This document shows, piece by piece, positions 1 to 50,282 of a DNA stretch of 64,000 nt. Below the pieces are notes generated by a model. The model was not told the DNA's origin, ran no database searches, and worked only from the letters and a program-made list of their open reading frames with translations. The position numbers and the translations under genes were made by a program. The stretch's first letter is position 1; every line of letters starts with the position of its first letter. Source of the stretch: Pseudodesulfovibrio sp. S3 (GTDB lineage: Bacteria > Desulfobacterota > Desulfovibrionia > Desulfovibrionales > Desulfovibrionaceae); contig NZ_QTZO01000014.1 of assembly GCF_004025585.1 (NCBI RefSeq), forward strand, positions 1 through 64,000. The letters are read 5' to 3'.

Positions 1-77
1 CGTCAGATGGTTATAATGGACAGTCCCCTCTCCCTTCCGAAACTTTTTGTAGCCGCTTCGCGGAAAACGTTCTTCAT

Positions 78-228
78 GGAGCGACTCGGAGGCCAAAGGC
101 ATCCGACAGCAACTATCCCTCTCCAATATCATTGGAGCGCCTTGGATGCCAACGGCATCCAACAGCAGCTCTCCCACCCCGACACATTGGAGCGATTCGG
201 GTGCCAAAGGCACCCGACAGCGGCTCTC
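78..228. repeat. Tandem array of three covarying hairpin units
   Basis: Three imperfect units of about 40 to 47 bp lie at 78-124, 134-174 and 189-228. Each begins GGAGCG and ends in CTC or CTCC, and each holds a hairpin with an AAC or AAA loop. The stem sequences differ between units but stay paired: TTGGATGCC with GGCATCCAA, and CGGGTGCC with GGCACCCG. The same layout recurs at 49225-49395. No long open frame covers the units convincingly. They sit directly beyond the 123-bp element at 245-367. Confidence 0.75.
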
Positions 229-244
229 TTCCCACTCACGCGAT

Positions 245-367
245 GAGGCTTGGGAGAGTGGTGCAGATGTGCATTTTCTCGGGCGCAGCCGACCCGCAGC
301 CGTATCCCAATACGGCGAGGACTCGGCAAGGCCGAAAAATGTGCAGATGCGCCGCTATCCCAAGCCG
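245..367 (-). repeat. Structured 3'-UTR-type repeat element, copy 1
   Basis: Read on the minus strand, this element begins one base after the TAG of the M48 protease gene. An outer 9-bp stem pairs 247-255 with 358-366. Inside are conserved motifs seen on the plus strand as CAGATGTGCATTTT and AAAATGTGCAGATG. The centre is a GC-rich hairpin containing CCGTAT-CCCA-ATACGG. A second copy lies at 49409-49533 and a diverged third at 26060-26175. It does not look like a simple terminator because there is no T-run. Confidence 0.7.
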
Positions 368-368
368 C

Positions 369-1700
369 CTACCTTACGTAGCCCCACTCCACCAAACGGT
401 TGTAGGCGTGCTGGGCCTGATCGCCCTTGTTCACCTTTTGCAGGAATTGATAATATTCGCGGGCGGCCTGATCGCGGTTGCCCATGCCTTCCTGGGAATA
501 CCCCTTGAAGAAGCCGACATACGGATTGCCGGGCAATGCCTTGTCGTATCCCGCAAAGCTGTCATAGGCCTGATCGTACTTCTTGGCCTGAACCAGGAGC
601 ACGCCGCTGACCTGATGGGCCTGGGCCTCGCCCGGATACACCTGCTCGGCCTTCTGGGCATAGGGCAAAGCCGCATCATACTTCTTCTGGGCCATGAGCA
701 GCTTGGACATGAGCAAAAGGCCGGTATAGTCGTTCGGCGCCGCCTTCAGTGCCGTGCTCATCTTTCCCTCGGCCTCGACATATTTCTTCTCGCCGCCGAG
801 CTTTTCCGCCTGCTGCATGTCCTTGATGGCCGGACCGAGCTTGCGCAACTCCGCAGTGTTGTCCATATACCGCTCGCGGTACACCGCATATTCTTTCTTG
901 CCGAGATATTTTTCGTTGGCGGTCTTGCGGGCCGTGGACAGCCTCTCGGAACTCATTGGGTGGGTGGCGAACATGACTTCCAGTGCGCTCGGCTCACGGC
1001 CATGCTGCTCGTTGAGCATCTCCATGAGTCCGATCATACCGTCGGGGTTGTACTGTGCCCTGGTCATGTACTCCATGCCAAGGGCATCGGCCTGACGCTC
1101 GTCGTCCCGACTGTAGGAAGCCAGAAGCAGACCCGCGCCCAGGCCGCCCAGGCCCCCGGCCAGTGAGCCCCAGGCCCCGCCATACTTTGCCCCGATAACC
1201 GCTCCGCCGAGACCGGCCACACCGCCTATCACCATTTGCGAACTCAAGCGAGAAGACGTGTGCCGGGCATTGACATGGCCGATCTCGTGCCCGAGCAAAG
1301 CGGCCAGCTCGGCCTCATTGTCCACCTCGAGCATGATGCCGCGCGTGCAGGCGATGGTCCCGCCCGGAAAAGCGTAGGCGTTGACATAGTTGGCGTTAAC
1401 CACATTGTAATTAAAGGGCATCTGCGGCCGGTGTGACTTTTCGGACAGGGACTTGCCCACCCCGTTCACATACTCATTCAAGGCCATGTCCTGGGTCGTG
1501 CCATAATCGTTTGAGAGCTGCTGGGGCGAGGCATCGCGATCCATCTGGACCTCCTGCTCCTCGCTGACCAGCATGAACTGGCTCTGCCCCGTAACCGGGT
1601 TCTTTGCGCACCCGCCCAAGGTCAGGGCGGCGGCGGTCATGGTGCCCGCCTTCAGAAATTCACGGCGACTCAGTTGTCCGTCCCTATCTCTTCGTTTCAT
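369..1700 (-). CDS. M48 family metalloprotease with C-terminal TPR repeats, Tat-exported lipoprotein
   Basis: This is a 443-residue zinc metalloprotease of the BepA/LoiP kind, expected at the inner face of the outer membrane or in the periplasm. The N-terminus carries a twin-arginine motif (SRREFLK, about residues 11-17) and a lipobox-like LGGC with Cys31. The catalytic HEIGH motif is at 138-142, and a downstream ERQAD segment supplies the third zinc ligand. Residues of about 280-440 are TPR-like. Start 1700 is chosen because GGAG lies six bases upstream; an ATG at 1712 is also in frame. A Tat signal together with a lipobox is less common but known. BepA-like quality control of outer-membrane proteins is an inference. 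Confidence 0.9.
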   Translation of the reverse strand: MKRRDRDGQLSRREFLKAGTMTAAALTLGGCAKNPVTGQSQFMLVSEEQEVQMDRDASPQQLSNDYGTTQDMALNEYVNGVGKSLSEKSHRPQMPFNYNVVNANYVNAYAFPGGTIACTRGIMLEVDNEAELAALLGHEIGHVNARHTSSRLSSQMVIGGVAGLGGAVIGAKYGGAWGSLAGGLGGLGAGLLLASYSRDDERQADALGMEYMTRAQYNPDGMIGLMEMLNEQHGREPSALEVMFATHPMSSERLSTARKTANEKYLGKKEYAVYRERYMDNTAELRKLGPAIKDMQQAEKLGGEKKYVEAEGKMSTALKAAPNDYTGLLLMSKLLMAQKKYDAALPYAQKAEQVYPGEAQAHQVSGVLLVQAKKYDQAYDSFAGYDKALPGNPYVGFFKGYSQEGMGNRDQAAREYYQFLQKVNKGDQAQHAYNRLVEWGYVR

Positions 1701-1766
1701 TGTCATCTCCATTACTTGCCCGCACGATACCGCAAACCAAGGGCAACATTCAAGTCCGCACCGCTG

Positions 1767-25719: not shown

Positions 25720-26049
25720 ATGCCGGAACCCGCTGAAAAAGCAACTGAACTTTTCCGTCAGATGAACAAGAACCGTCGGGATGTCTTCAAGGCGTACCAG
25801 GGGTTCACTGCCGCCATCAAGAAAGGCAGCGCCATTGAGGACAAGTACCAGTCCCTGATCCTCATCGCCTGCTCCATCCTGACCCAGTGCGACATGTGTA
25901 TCTCGCTGCACGTGCAGAACGCCGTCACCCACGGCGCCTCCAGGGACGAGATCATCGACGCCGGGCTGTTGGCCGTGGCCATGGGCGGCTCGCCCAAGAT
26001 GATGTACATGCGGTACGTGTACGAGGAAGTGGACAAGCTCTACGAATAG
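25720..26049 (+). CDS. Carboxymuconolactone decarboxylase (AhpD-like) family protein
   Basis: This 109-residue all-helical protein has the CMD/AhpD active-site pattern Cys57-x-x-Cys60-x3-His64 (CDMCISLH), which marks a thiol peroxidase or redox role rather than lactone decarboxylation. AGGAGG precedes the ATG. It stands alone: a terminator lies upstream and a structured repeat element follows the stop codon by about ten bases. A peroxide-related function is inferred from the motif only. Confidence 0.9.
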   Translation: MPEPAEKATELFRQMNKNRRDVFKAYQGFTAAIKKGSAIEDKYQSLILIACSILTQCDMCISLHVQNAVTHGASRDEIIDAGLLAVAMGGSPKMMYMRYVYEEVDKLYE

Positions 26050-26059
26050 TATTTCCTGT

Positions 26060-26175
26060 GGGGACAGCGTGCGACAGCAGGCCGTGCCCACATCTTTCGG
26101 CCTTGCCTCTGCCTGCCGGGGCATGCTTGCGGAGCGGCCGAAGCCGGAAAATCGGCACATCTGCCCACTCTCTCC
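26060..26175 (+). repeat. Structured 3'-UTR-type repeat element, diverged copy 3
   Basis: This element begins ten bases after the stop of the CMD-family gene and is in the same sense. It keeps the paired conserved blocks (CCCACATCTTTCGG at 26087-26100, and GGAAAATCGGCACATCTG plus CCCACTCT at its far side). An outer stem pairs 26060-26067 with 26168-26175 through seven of eight positions using different bases from copies 1 and 2. The central stem TTCGGCC/GGCCGAA is also different but paired. Confidence 0.55.
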
Positions 26176-26216
26176 GACCTCCGGGTGTTGGTTGAAACAG
26201 GGGCTGGAATCGAATC

Positions 26217-26386: not shown

Positions 26387-27394
26387 TTACGTGAGGTCGG
26401 CCTTTGCAAGAACGGATATGAGCCGCCTGAGCATTTCCTTGTCATAGGCATTGCGCATGGACTTGATGTGGGTCAGGGCCTCGAACGGGGTCATTCTCCG
26501 GCCTTCCTTGCCACGGGTCAGGTTGTCGTATTCGTTGCACAGGCTCAAGACCTTGACGTAGGAAGGCAGCATCGCACCCGTGGACCCGGAGGGGTAGCCC
26601 AGTCCGTCCTCACGCTCATGATGGAACAGGATGCATTGCAGCGCTTCCTGGGGCAGGGGCATGGAGGAGCACAGACTCACGCCCAGAGCGGGATGGGACT
26701 TGACCAGGTCTTTGTCCGCCCGGCTCAGGTTGTCGAATTTCTTGGTGAACAGATCCTGCGGCAACTCCATTTTACCGATGTCGTGCAGGATGGCTCCCAT
26801 GCCCACAGCCACCAGTGTTTCGGAATCCTCCTTCATGAAGGAACACAGGGTGGTGATGGTCAGCACCATGACTCCGATACCGTGGCGATAGGATTCGTCA
26901 CCTTCTTTGATAAACCTGGACAGTTCCTTCAGGGCGTCCTCTCTCGCAAGGAATTTCAGCGAATTGGAAATAATCGCCCGGATGCGTTTGAACTGCCGTT
27001 TGTCTATGGGCGAAGGAAGGGACCGGTCAAAGGCTTCCCTGGCAATGGACACGGTGGCGTCGTTCCACACCCTGGCCCGTTCGGTCACGGGGATGGATTC
27101 GTTGTCCAACAGCTCCAGGATGTTGTCCTGAAGGTAGTTCATGAAGTGACGGTAGTCCGCACCCTTGACGTACAGATGCTTCACGCCGAGCAGGGACAAC
27201 CGCTCCTTGTGCTCGTCCGTGAACAGCTCGCCCTTTTCCGCATAGAGCACCAGCTTGCCTTCCTGCTTCAGATACAGGGAAAAGCCTCCCACCCTGGAAG
27301 GGATGACCATATAGGGGGACACCTTGACCAGGTTTTCGTCCAACGAAGGGGTTTTACTGATATTGCCGTTCCCGGCGGATGGAATGTTGCTCAT
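26387..27394 (-). CDS. HD-GYP domain protein, probable c-di-GMP phosphodiesterase
   Basis: This 335-residue protein has a ~130-residue N-terminal DUF3391-like region (LVKVSPYMVIPSRVGGFSLY...). The HD-GYP domain follows, with HD at 204-205 (LHDIGK), HHE at ~258-260 and DGLGYP ending at 268. All metal-binding positions I can check are present, so c-di-GMP or cGAMP hydrolysis is expected. The start at 27394 has AAGGAG six bases upstream; the longer in-frame extension covers the riboswitch and is not coding. The leader carries a c-di-GMP-I riboswitch, which implies feedback by its own substrate. Confidence 0.93.
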   Translation of the reverse strand: MSNIPSAGNGNISKTPSLDENLVKVSPYMVIPSRVGGFSLYLKQEGKLVLYAEKGELFTDEHKERLSLLGVKHLYVKGADYRHFMNYLQDNILELLDNESIPVTERARVWNDATVSIAREAFDRSLPSPIDKRQFKRIRAIISNSLKFLAREDALKELSRFIKEGDESYRHGIGVMVLTITTLCSFMKEDSETLVAVGMGAILHDIGKMELPQDLFTKKFDNLSRADKDLVKSHPALGVSLCSSMPLPQEALQCILFHHEREDGLGYPSGSTGAMLPSYVKVLSLCNEYDNLTRGKEGRRMTPFEALTHIKSMRNAYDKEMLRRLISVLAKADLT

Positions 27395-27461
27395 GCGTTC
27401 TCCTTGATGAAAGGCGGGGATGCCTGAGCGGTACGAAATCACGACGGACATCGGAAGAGCT

Positions 27462-27536
27462 GTGGCAACCCGGCTGCCTGCAAGAGGCCCGTGGCTTTCC
27501 GTCCCCGCCTCGCAACGGGTTTGGCTTTGTTTCAAC
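27462..27536 (-). promoter_or_regulatory. c-di-GMP-I (GEMM-I) riboswitch
   Basis: On the minus strand the core reads AAAGCCAAACCCGTTGCGA, then GGCGGGGACGGAAAGCCACG, then GGCC, a short loop and GGCAGCCGGGTTGCC. The P1b hairpin CCCGTT-GCGA-GGCGGG has a GNRA tetraloop. GGGACG.AAAGCCACGGGCC and AGCCGGGTTGCC are hallmark GEMM-I segments. It ends 67 bases before the ATG of the HD-GYP gene. I see no clear terminator in the expression platform, so translational control is possible. The rest of the 27395-27708 gap holds the promoter of the divergent gene. Confidence 0.88.
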
Positions 27537-49095: not shown

Positions 49096-49224
49096 CCCGC
49101 CCCGAGCGCCCAAACACCCGACGGCAGCGCTCCTCCCTCCTGCTTTCCCCATAAATGAAGCAAGGTTGACGAGGCGCGTCCCAAGCAGCTCTTCGCAGAT
49201 GAATATGGAACCCACATAGAGAAT

Positions 49225-49395
49225 GGAGCGCCTTTGGGCAAAACACCCCGAACAGCCGCTCTCATACAAAGCCCCCCCCCTCATAAAACGGAGTGCCTTT
49301 AGGGCGGCAAGCTCCAAACAACAGATCAGGCGAACACTGGGTCCTCGGGGAAATGGAGTGCCTTTGGGGCGAAACGCCCCAAACAACGGCTCTCC
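49225..49395. repeat. Second array of three covarying hairpin units
   Basis: Units at 49225-49263, 49290-49330 and 49355-49395 each begin GGAG(C/T)GCCTTT and, in the first and third, end GGCTCTC or similar. The third holds TTGGGGCG-AAA-CGCCCCAA with flanking GGAG/CTCC pairing. Stem sequences differ from those at 78-228 but the architecture is the same. The middle unit is degenerate. Confidence 0.7.
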
Positions 49396-49408
49396 TCCCC
49401 GACGCCGT

Positions 49409-49533
49409 GAGGCTTGGAAGAGTGGGTCAGATGTGCATTTTACGCGGGGGCGGCAGACCGCAGCGTAGTCCCTCTACGTGAGGATCTGACGGCCCCGCGG
49501 AAAATGTGCAGATGGCCCGCTATCCCAAGCCGG
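49409..49533 (-). repeat. Structured 3'-UTR-type repeat element, copy 2
   Basis: Read on the minus strand it starts two bases after the stop of the TrmJ-like gene. The outer stem pairs 49411-49417 with 49525-49531. The conserved blocks CAGATGTGCATTTT and AAAATGTGCAGATG match copy 1 exactly. The central hairpin differs entirely (CGCGGGG/CCCCGCG outside and CGTAG/CTACG inside) but remains paired. Confidence 0.72.
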
Positions 49534-49535
49534 GG

Positions 49536-50282
49536 CTACCCCTTCGGACCATAAGTCCGCACAAACCACTGCACTTGCCTGCAAATGCCCATGAGCAGAT
49601 TGAACTCGTTGCGCCGCAGGTCGATCTTGGAGAAGAACCGGCGCACAGGAAGCATCCAGTAGTCCGGGTTGTCGTCTTTGAGGAAATCGATGGCCAGCAG
49701 GCTCTCCTGGAGATTGCCGAACAGGGCTTCCTGTTCCTGCACCGTGGTGGGCCGTTCCTCAGGCGGACCGCCCGGAACGAAAGGCTCGGAAAACGACCGC
49801 TTGAAGCACTCGTACAAGACCACTACAACGGCCTGGGCCAGGTTTAGAGAGGTTCCTTCCAAACTGGTGGGGATGGTCATCAGGCCGGAACAGATCGAGG
49901 TTTCCTCATTGGTCAACCCCTTGTCTTCCGGACCGAATACAATGGCAACCCTGCCGCCGCCGCGAAGACGCTTGTCCACGACTCCGGCCAGCTCCTCGGG
50001 CACCATGAGACCTTTGCGCCACCCTCCGGTGCGGGCCGTGGTGCCGAACACCGCAGTGCAACCCTCCACGGCCTCGGCAAGGGTGTTCACAATGCGGGCG
50101 GACTCCAGGATATGACGGGCATGGGCCGTGGCCAGGGGCAGGGCCTTGTCCAGATTGAAATTGTAAGGATCGACCACAACCAGGTCGGACACACCCATAT
50201 TCAGGCAGGCCCGGGCCACGGACCCGATGTTTTCAGGGTATTTCGGTCGGAAAAGAACCACTACGAGATCGTCGAGCATCAT
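49536..50282 (-). CDS. TrmH/TrmJ-family tRNA or rRNA 2'-O-methyltransferase
   Basis: This 248-residue SPOUT methyltransferase resembles TrmJ, which methylates tRNA position 32. Motifs include RPKYPENIGSVARACLNMGV, VAIVFGPEDKGLTNEE and the knot sequence TSLEGTSLNLAQAVVVVLYE. The C-terminal ~80-residue extension is helical as in TrmJ. Start 50282 follows AGGAGGCGC. It converges with the GGDEF-EAL gene, and repeat copy 2 directly follows its stop. Confidence 0.9.
   Translation of the reverse strand: MMLDDLVVVLFRPKYPENIGSVARACLNMGVSDLVVVDPYNFNLDKALPLATAHARHILESARIVNTLAEAVEGCTAVFGTTARTGGWRKGLMVPEELAGVVDKRLRGGGRVAIVFGPEDKGLTNEETSICSGLMTIPTSLEGTSLNLAQAVVVVLYECFKRSFSEPFVPGGPPEERPTTVQEQEALFGNLQESLLAIDFLKDDNPDYWMLPVRRFFSKIDLRRNEFNLLMGICRQVQWFVRTYGPKG

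Follow-up and report, generated by a model that had tools for sequence, protein, structure and literature searches.

An interspersed palindromic repeat family at gene ends in Pseudodesulfovibrio, probably a DNA element

Directly behind the stop codons of unrelated genes in Pseudodesulfovibrio sp. S3 lie copies of a structured sequence of about 125 nt, and the question is whether this sequence acts in the transcript of the gene that it follows or is a repeat of the DNA itself. It is raised here by a stretch of 64,000 nt (the window), contig C14 of a genome (G000) of 3.68 Mb, in which the original prediction had seen three copies. In what follows, unit A is the ~125-nt core, A′ is its better-folding strand (opposite to the sense assumed in the prediction) and B is a shorter hairpin that often accompanies A.

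Copies in the window and in the genus

The predicted repeat family is real. A covariance model, built from 30 copies of three genomes (with one of two identical MIC098 copies, one shortened copy and the decayed window copy omitted), recovers 23 strong copies of the ~125-nt unit in the own genome at E<1e-21, plus weak ones, and a BLAST search with copy 1 as query gives 21 hits at E<1e-6, of which one is the query, one is copy 2 (E 1.3e-19) and 19 are further sites. Within the window, copies 1 and 2 are full members, with both 14-nt motifs intact, whereas copy 3 is a decayed relative (Table 1) whose motifs carry 3 mismatches, and matches of that quality are no commoner in the window than chance predicts. 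The predicted distances from the stop codons hold for all three: 1 nt behind an M48-peptidase/TPR gene (369-1712, minus strand) for copy 1, 2 nt behind a SpoU-methylase-family gene (49536-50282, minus strand) for copy 2, and 10 nt behind a CMD-family gene (25720-26049, plus strand) for copy 3. Copies 1 and 2 are each accompanied, on the side opposite from the abutting gene, by three B hairpins (77-226 and 49224-49394, delimited partly by eye); no clear B hairpin was seen beside copy 3.

Table 1. Units A and B in the window, with strand and support
Feature	Position	Strand	Support or remark
Unit A, copy 1	242..368	+ (strand A′; sense of the original prediction = -)	covariance model E 2.7e-30
B hairpin adjoining copy 1	188..226	-	
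Second B hairpin, copy 1 side	133..173	-	bounds taken from sequence
Third B hairpin, copy 1 side, diverged	77..118	-	bounds taken from sequence
Unit A, copy 2	49406..49533	+ (strand A′)	covariance model E 6.6e-27
B hairpin adjoining copy 2	49354..49394	-	bounds taken from sequence
Second B hairpin, copy 2 side	49289..49328	-	bounds taken from sequence
Third B hairpin, copy 2 side	49224..49263	-	bounds taken from sequence
Decayed unit A, copy 3	26064..26184	- (strand A′)	partial BLAST E 0.0047; model E 0.96

Among the matches listed (most copies appear once per strand), 26 of 36 genomes of the genus match the model at E<=1e-3 and the other 10 have no match at that level. Matches at E<=1e-14 number 42 in G007, 35 in G014, 32 in G006, 24 in G019, 13 in G009, 12 in G033, 4 each in G016 and G031, and 2 in G034, and copy number in the genus, from 0 to more than 40, is patchy between species. 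At the family level, matches at E<=1e-5 occur in 25 of 247 genomes, and the genus contributes 22 of these genomes. Exact pattern matches in named genomes include Pseudodesulfovibrio sp. OB3 (7 stretches) and the Desulfovibrionaceae MAG MIC098Bin4 (3 stretches). Carriage of copy 2 by phages or plasmids was rejected, a search of such records having given no match; two viral-contig pattern matches do not extend into the A sequence. Judged from listings, searches of open-licence papers on Desulfovibrio and Pseudodesulfovibrio repeats gave no apparent report of this family.

Anatomy, pairing and strand

Unit A consists of two conserved, imperfectly inverted arms of ~31 nt each, which enclose a stem of variable sequence and a small hairpin that is conserved; mean column identity is 0.91 and 0.92 in the arms, 0.73 in the variable middle and 0.90 in the small hairpin within it. 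A spacer and at least one B hairpin usually come next, a B starting no more than 100 nt behind A in 17 of 22 own-genome copies, and in one region between two convergent genes (L078) the order is stop-A-B-terminator-B-A-stop. Other recurrent pieces lie near B. Nine contig ends of the own genome (L245, L249, L252, L254, L255, L258, L261, L262, L263) carry a B hairpin followed by a few-hundred-base repeat that recurs within the same end, which is perhaps the reason why the assembly breaks there. By eye, a further piece, AAGTTT-GGAAGGGAGAGG, often ending in GCCGCCGGAGGC, recurs beyond B at gene 3′ ends (L074, L075, L077, L086, L089, and 20-60 in the window).

The pairing of A is kept by paired changes, as the claim of covarying stems had held: 20 of 49 pairs are altered on both sides, and cells with both-sided changes number 122 against 42.9 in shuffles, with none of 500 shuffles reaching 122. 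Pairing stands at 91.9% and drops to 34-43% when the structures are slid along the alignment. Such covariation favours a reading of A as a cis-acting 3′-UTR RNA that would protect or process the 3′ end and would share the sense of the preceding gene or, when read as A′, that of the gene on its other side. The strand that folds better is, however, the one opposite to the prediction, as 32 of 33 copies reach a lower minimum free energy on A′ (on average -74.3 vs -58.4), and DNA-parameter folding also prefers A′ (29 of 30 copies). On A′, the motif described as mismatched forms tandem G.A and U.G/G.U pairs. The predicted arrangement of loop and stems is right for two copies, but pairing is better on the opposite strand.

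The kinds of pair also count against the RNA reading. Over all pairs on A′, G.U (130) exceeds A.C (45) because of three near-fixed wobble columns; without these the figures are 48 and 45, so that the variable pairs show no RNA-like preference for either strand and resemble those of a DNA palindrome, while the fixed pairs mark the strand. As set out in PMC8794818, template switching during DNA replication can also yield covariation. Template switching would be expected to erase the fixed mismatches, yet these are kept in most copies, and they are therefore probably recognised by something.

Placement at gene ends and dispersal

Gene context was read from 64 copies with ~1.5-2 kb of flank in seven genomes (17 from G000, 12 each from G006 and G007, 7 from G014, 6 each from G019 and G033 and 4 from G016), a sample that omits the window copies, own-genome copies near contig ends, the second L078 copy and near-duplicate loci of G009 and OB3. 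Genes were called by a codon-score script (some calls are uncertain), and 62 copies had two called neighbours; the resulting table supersedes one of 30 loci from crude longest-ORF calls, which often disagreed with the codon-score calls. A lies between convergent genes in 33 of the 62 cases, where sense with either gene is therefore arbitrary, between codirectional genes in the predicted sense in 17, between codirectional genes in antisense in 8, and between divergent genes in 4, i.e. 58 copies are in non-divergent settings. On the A side, the gene turns its 3′ end toward A in 50 of 62 copies. This tendency agrees with the predicted gene sense and supports the RNA reading, but the sense is not fixed: contrary to the original prediction, copies occur in both orientations, an outcome that the prediction itself had named as refuting it, and 8 of the 25 codirectional ones are antisense (17 vs 8, p 0.11). 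In two firm antisense cases both flanking genes have Pfam matches (L074 with trpA and a PMT-family gene; L089 with tyrS and a Vut_1 gene); in a third the neighbours, of the FtsX and LysR families, are 462-502 nt distant. An earlier, overlapping set of 33 copies, some with weak gene calls, had 6 sense and 7 antisense among 13 codirectional copies.

Copies tend to lie just behind stop codons or terminators. The distance from A to the neighbouring gene end is at most 17 nt in 28 of 52 cases, 18-64 nt in 1, 65-91 nt in 18 and larger in 5. Of 62 rows, a set different from the 62 copies of the gene-context table, 28 have a terminator-like hairpin with a T-run within the 80 nt preceding A and 7 within the 80 nt that follow it, compared with 4 of 300 random window 80-mers; orthologous repeats make up 11 of the 62 rows, and without these (removed by hand) the count before A is 21 of 51, while a stricter scan gives 14 of 62. 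The two-peaked distances, together with the terminators before A, indicate that A often separates a stop codon from the terminator or else directly follows the terminator. The closeness to stop codons favours the RNA reading, as do the terminators seen by eye beyond A and B in L078, L082 and L084. Against it, the strong terminator before A in the 28 rows means that A probably lies outside the transcript of that gene. An RNA element would be expected to hold to a single strand within a single transcript, whereas here orientation varies, terminators often intervene and the opposite strand folds better, which disfavours the RNA reading. The neighbours themselves have little in common: among the 25 most frequent of 123 Pfam families, none occurs in more than 3 of 92 flanking proteins and none is a transposase (the survey covers 92 of 124 called neighbours, the others being mostly cut by the locus end).

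A is a multicopy family whose nearest same-genome copies have unrelated upstream flanks. The closest such pairs are L063/L066 (100% identical), the window copy at 49409 with L017 (96%) and L011/L015 (95%); in the first the likeness extends through the spacer, and in the other two mainly a common B follows. That duplicates carry other flanks also speaks against a 3′-UTR RNA, as does a Zip-family locus at which G000 has one strong and one decayed copy and G009 has none; this orthologous A-less site is too diverged for the junction to be read, and no target-site duplication was established. Unrelated upstream flanks also disfavour a family of independent small-RNA genes transcribed from promoters of their own, for which the strong strand-specific fold and the many copies behind terminators could be cited; many copies abut stop codons, and A has no Rfam match in the window at the gathering score, with only two miRNA matches below threshold, at copy 2. 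Such a family is highly improbable. The one Rfam match in the window at the gathering score lies elsewhere, a c-di-GMP-I-GGC riboswitch (27460-27534, minus strand, 65.3 bits) just upstream of an HD-domain gene (26387-27451, minus strand).

Where copies of A adjoin homologous genes of distant species, identity is 70-87% in 14 of the 16 comparisons that could be used and 57-58% in the remaining 2, both of which involve L174, a copy carrying an insert; these values fit the same sites having been occupied repeatedly, or sequence exchange among copies. Similarity and genome of origin do not always go together, since window copy 1 matches copies of the G009/G033/OB3 group at 95% identity. In the closely related G009 and G033, most compared copies are common to both and five comparisons give 92-98% identity. 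Differences are seen there too, as a tandem of three diverged A units in G033 has one unit as its equivalent in G009, and a second A beside L155 in G033 is absent at the G009/OB3 equivalent. At five loci compared between these two genomes, identity is 97.1% for A (604/622), almost as high (96.3%) for the 100 nt that precede it and 91.5% for the upstream flank beyond 150 nt. Copies are also kept, then, as expected of something useful, and the identity of A at these loci counts in favour of the RNA reading. With the orientation, terminators, strand, pair types, duplicates and A-less site taken together, the original interpretation is supported only in part, and a cis-acting 3′-UTR RNA is unlikely.

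Chromosome position and nature of the repeat

The copies are clearly clustered on the chromosome in all six genomes tested (approximate Rayleigh p 6e-7 to 7e-3, computed with rounded lengths for G006 and G007). The clusters lie around the change of GC skew from minus to plus (noisy in G006), and in the four genomes checked dnaA stands beside a DnaN-family gene at this switch (Pfam-checked in two loci). Within a quarter genome of dnaA-dnaN lie 12/12, 12/13, 23/24 and 31/35 copies, 78/84 in total. A terminus at the centre was considered, since about two thirds of the called coding sequence of G033 points toward it, and was set aside; the pattern is absent in G009 and G014. An origin is favoured over a terminus because of dnaA with the DnaN-family gene and because the leading strand is usually G/T-rich. 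The tRNAs were few and a search with the SSU rRNA family found no 16S in four near-complete genomes (G014, G033, G009, G019); the origin at the cluster centre is therefore probable, not proven. As for the empty rRNA search, the stretch is perhaps masked in these four genomes, or a first look may fail. Each of four genomes has two DnaA-like genes (L225-L232), of which the 436-443 aa form adjoins the dnaN-like gene near the GC-skew switch, and the G009 record starts at the other form.

Such clustering raises the possibility of a chromosome-organising DNA site, a hairpin bound or extruded around the origin with its orientation set by replication. Apart from the clustering about the skew switch and dnaA-dnaN, its support comes from the best orientation splits (A′ toward the centre) of 12/12 in G033, 12/13 in G009 and 25/32 in G006, which were equalled by 0, 12 and 4 of 300 shuffles, respectively. 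The splits of 25/35 in G014, 29/42 in G007 and 16/24 in G019 were, however, equalled by 39, 49 and 207 of 300 shuffles, and about dnaA-dnaN itself the split is only 10/12 in G033 and 11/13 in G009 (25/35 in G014, 16/24 in G019). Orientation polarity is not general across these related genomes, which share ancestral sites and hence are not independent. The copies are, furthermore, tied to gene ends, and the 10 genomes of the genus mentioned above have no match. An organising role of this kind is quite improbable.

As described in PMC3733652 and PMC3116915, REPINs and BIMEs, which are RAYT-associated REP doublets, resemble A in their inverted conserved arms, variable middle, hairpin and tandem arrays, and in being intergenic, near ORF 3′ ends and mostly between convergent or codirectional neighbours; REPs elsewhere show the same 3′-end placement (section 15 of PMC3733652). 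Specific differences are that (i) the A arms alone fold weakly on A′ (mean about -4.8 kcal/mol), (ii) only 15 of 62 copies have GTAG or GGAG in the 12 nt preceding A, (iii) none of the fetched Y1/RAYT loci carries A, and (iv) A copies are clustered, whereas most REP families are spread throughout the genome, according to PMC3733652. With regard to the third point, six genomes rich in copies (G006, G007, G009, G014, G030, G033) gave no Y1_Tnp match at E<=1e-3, and the 34 fetched loci (6 + 28, a subset of the Y1 matches) hold only a 13-nt B match (L143) plus 10-11-nt chance matches; a RAYT/Y1 transposase as the present partner of A is unsupported. The own genome has near-identical Y1-transposase genes of ~220 aa at L092, L093 and L095, two neighbouring on contig C7 and one on C2.

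ERIC/IRU (127 bp) and MITE-like elements share with A their length, the imperfect palindrome of the whole unit, intergenic location and tens of copies, as ERIC is described in PMC2229807. A has the traits of this type, i.e. ~100-200 bp, a whole-length hairpin, terminal inverted repeats and dispersal. It differs in that TA precedes it in 0 of 62 copies, in being usually composite with B, and in that no duplication was established and no similar phage or plasmid record was found. CGTC-tagged REPs, as described in PMC3733652, are likewise hairpins behind genes with no dedicated transposase, and the A-B spacer, as read from the sequences, often has GCGTC; A is far longer than their stem of 8-9 bp and loop of 4-5 nt, and its GCGTC is in the spacer, not at the foot of the stem.

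On balance, A likely forms the core of a composite DNA repeat, palindromic and interspersed, in the genus to which Pseudodesulfovibrio belongs; the repeat is REPIN/BIME- or ERIC-like without the tested hallmarks of either. A small dispersed palindrome explains the copy number, the patchiness, the duplicates with new flanks and the 3′-end placement. In such a scheme the arms, with their fixed non-Watson-Crick positions, would be what an enzyme acting in trans recognised as it handled A in the form of a single-stranded hairpin. Insertion at gene ends would be tolerated or favoured, and insertions inside terminators lost; pairing might be upheld by hairpin selection, by repair in which the template switches from one arm to the other, or by the two together. 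Any use to the host (transcript-end protection, protein binding) would come second and might vary from copy to copy. Several points weigh against a mobile repeat: no mobilising enzyme was found in the Y1 searches (six genomes, 34 loci), no target-site duplication was established, A is conserved at loci common to G009 and G033, window copy 1 closely resembles copies of other genomes, and the gene-sense bias on the A side (50 of 62) exceeds what random insertion needs. A rather doubtful, more specific version would have a single-stranded DNA hairpin element placed by a non-Y1 enzyme at the ends of transcription units, around the origin and in replication-linked orientation, with the tandem G.A/G.U marking the active strand.

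For this lineage, a composite interspersed repeat is the likely reading of a repeat family with tens of copies, a two-site placement behind genes and clustering about a probable origin, a combination for which no counterpart was found in open-licence papers. The family also illustrates that covariation in a bacterial hairpin is not proof of a functional RNA, and its loci could serve to distinguish selection on an RNA from selection on a DNA hairpin and from repair by template switching.
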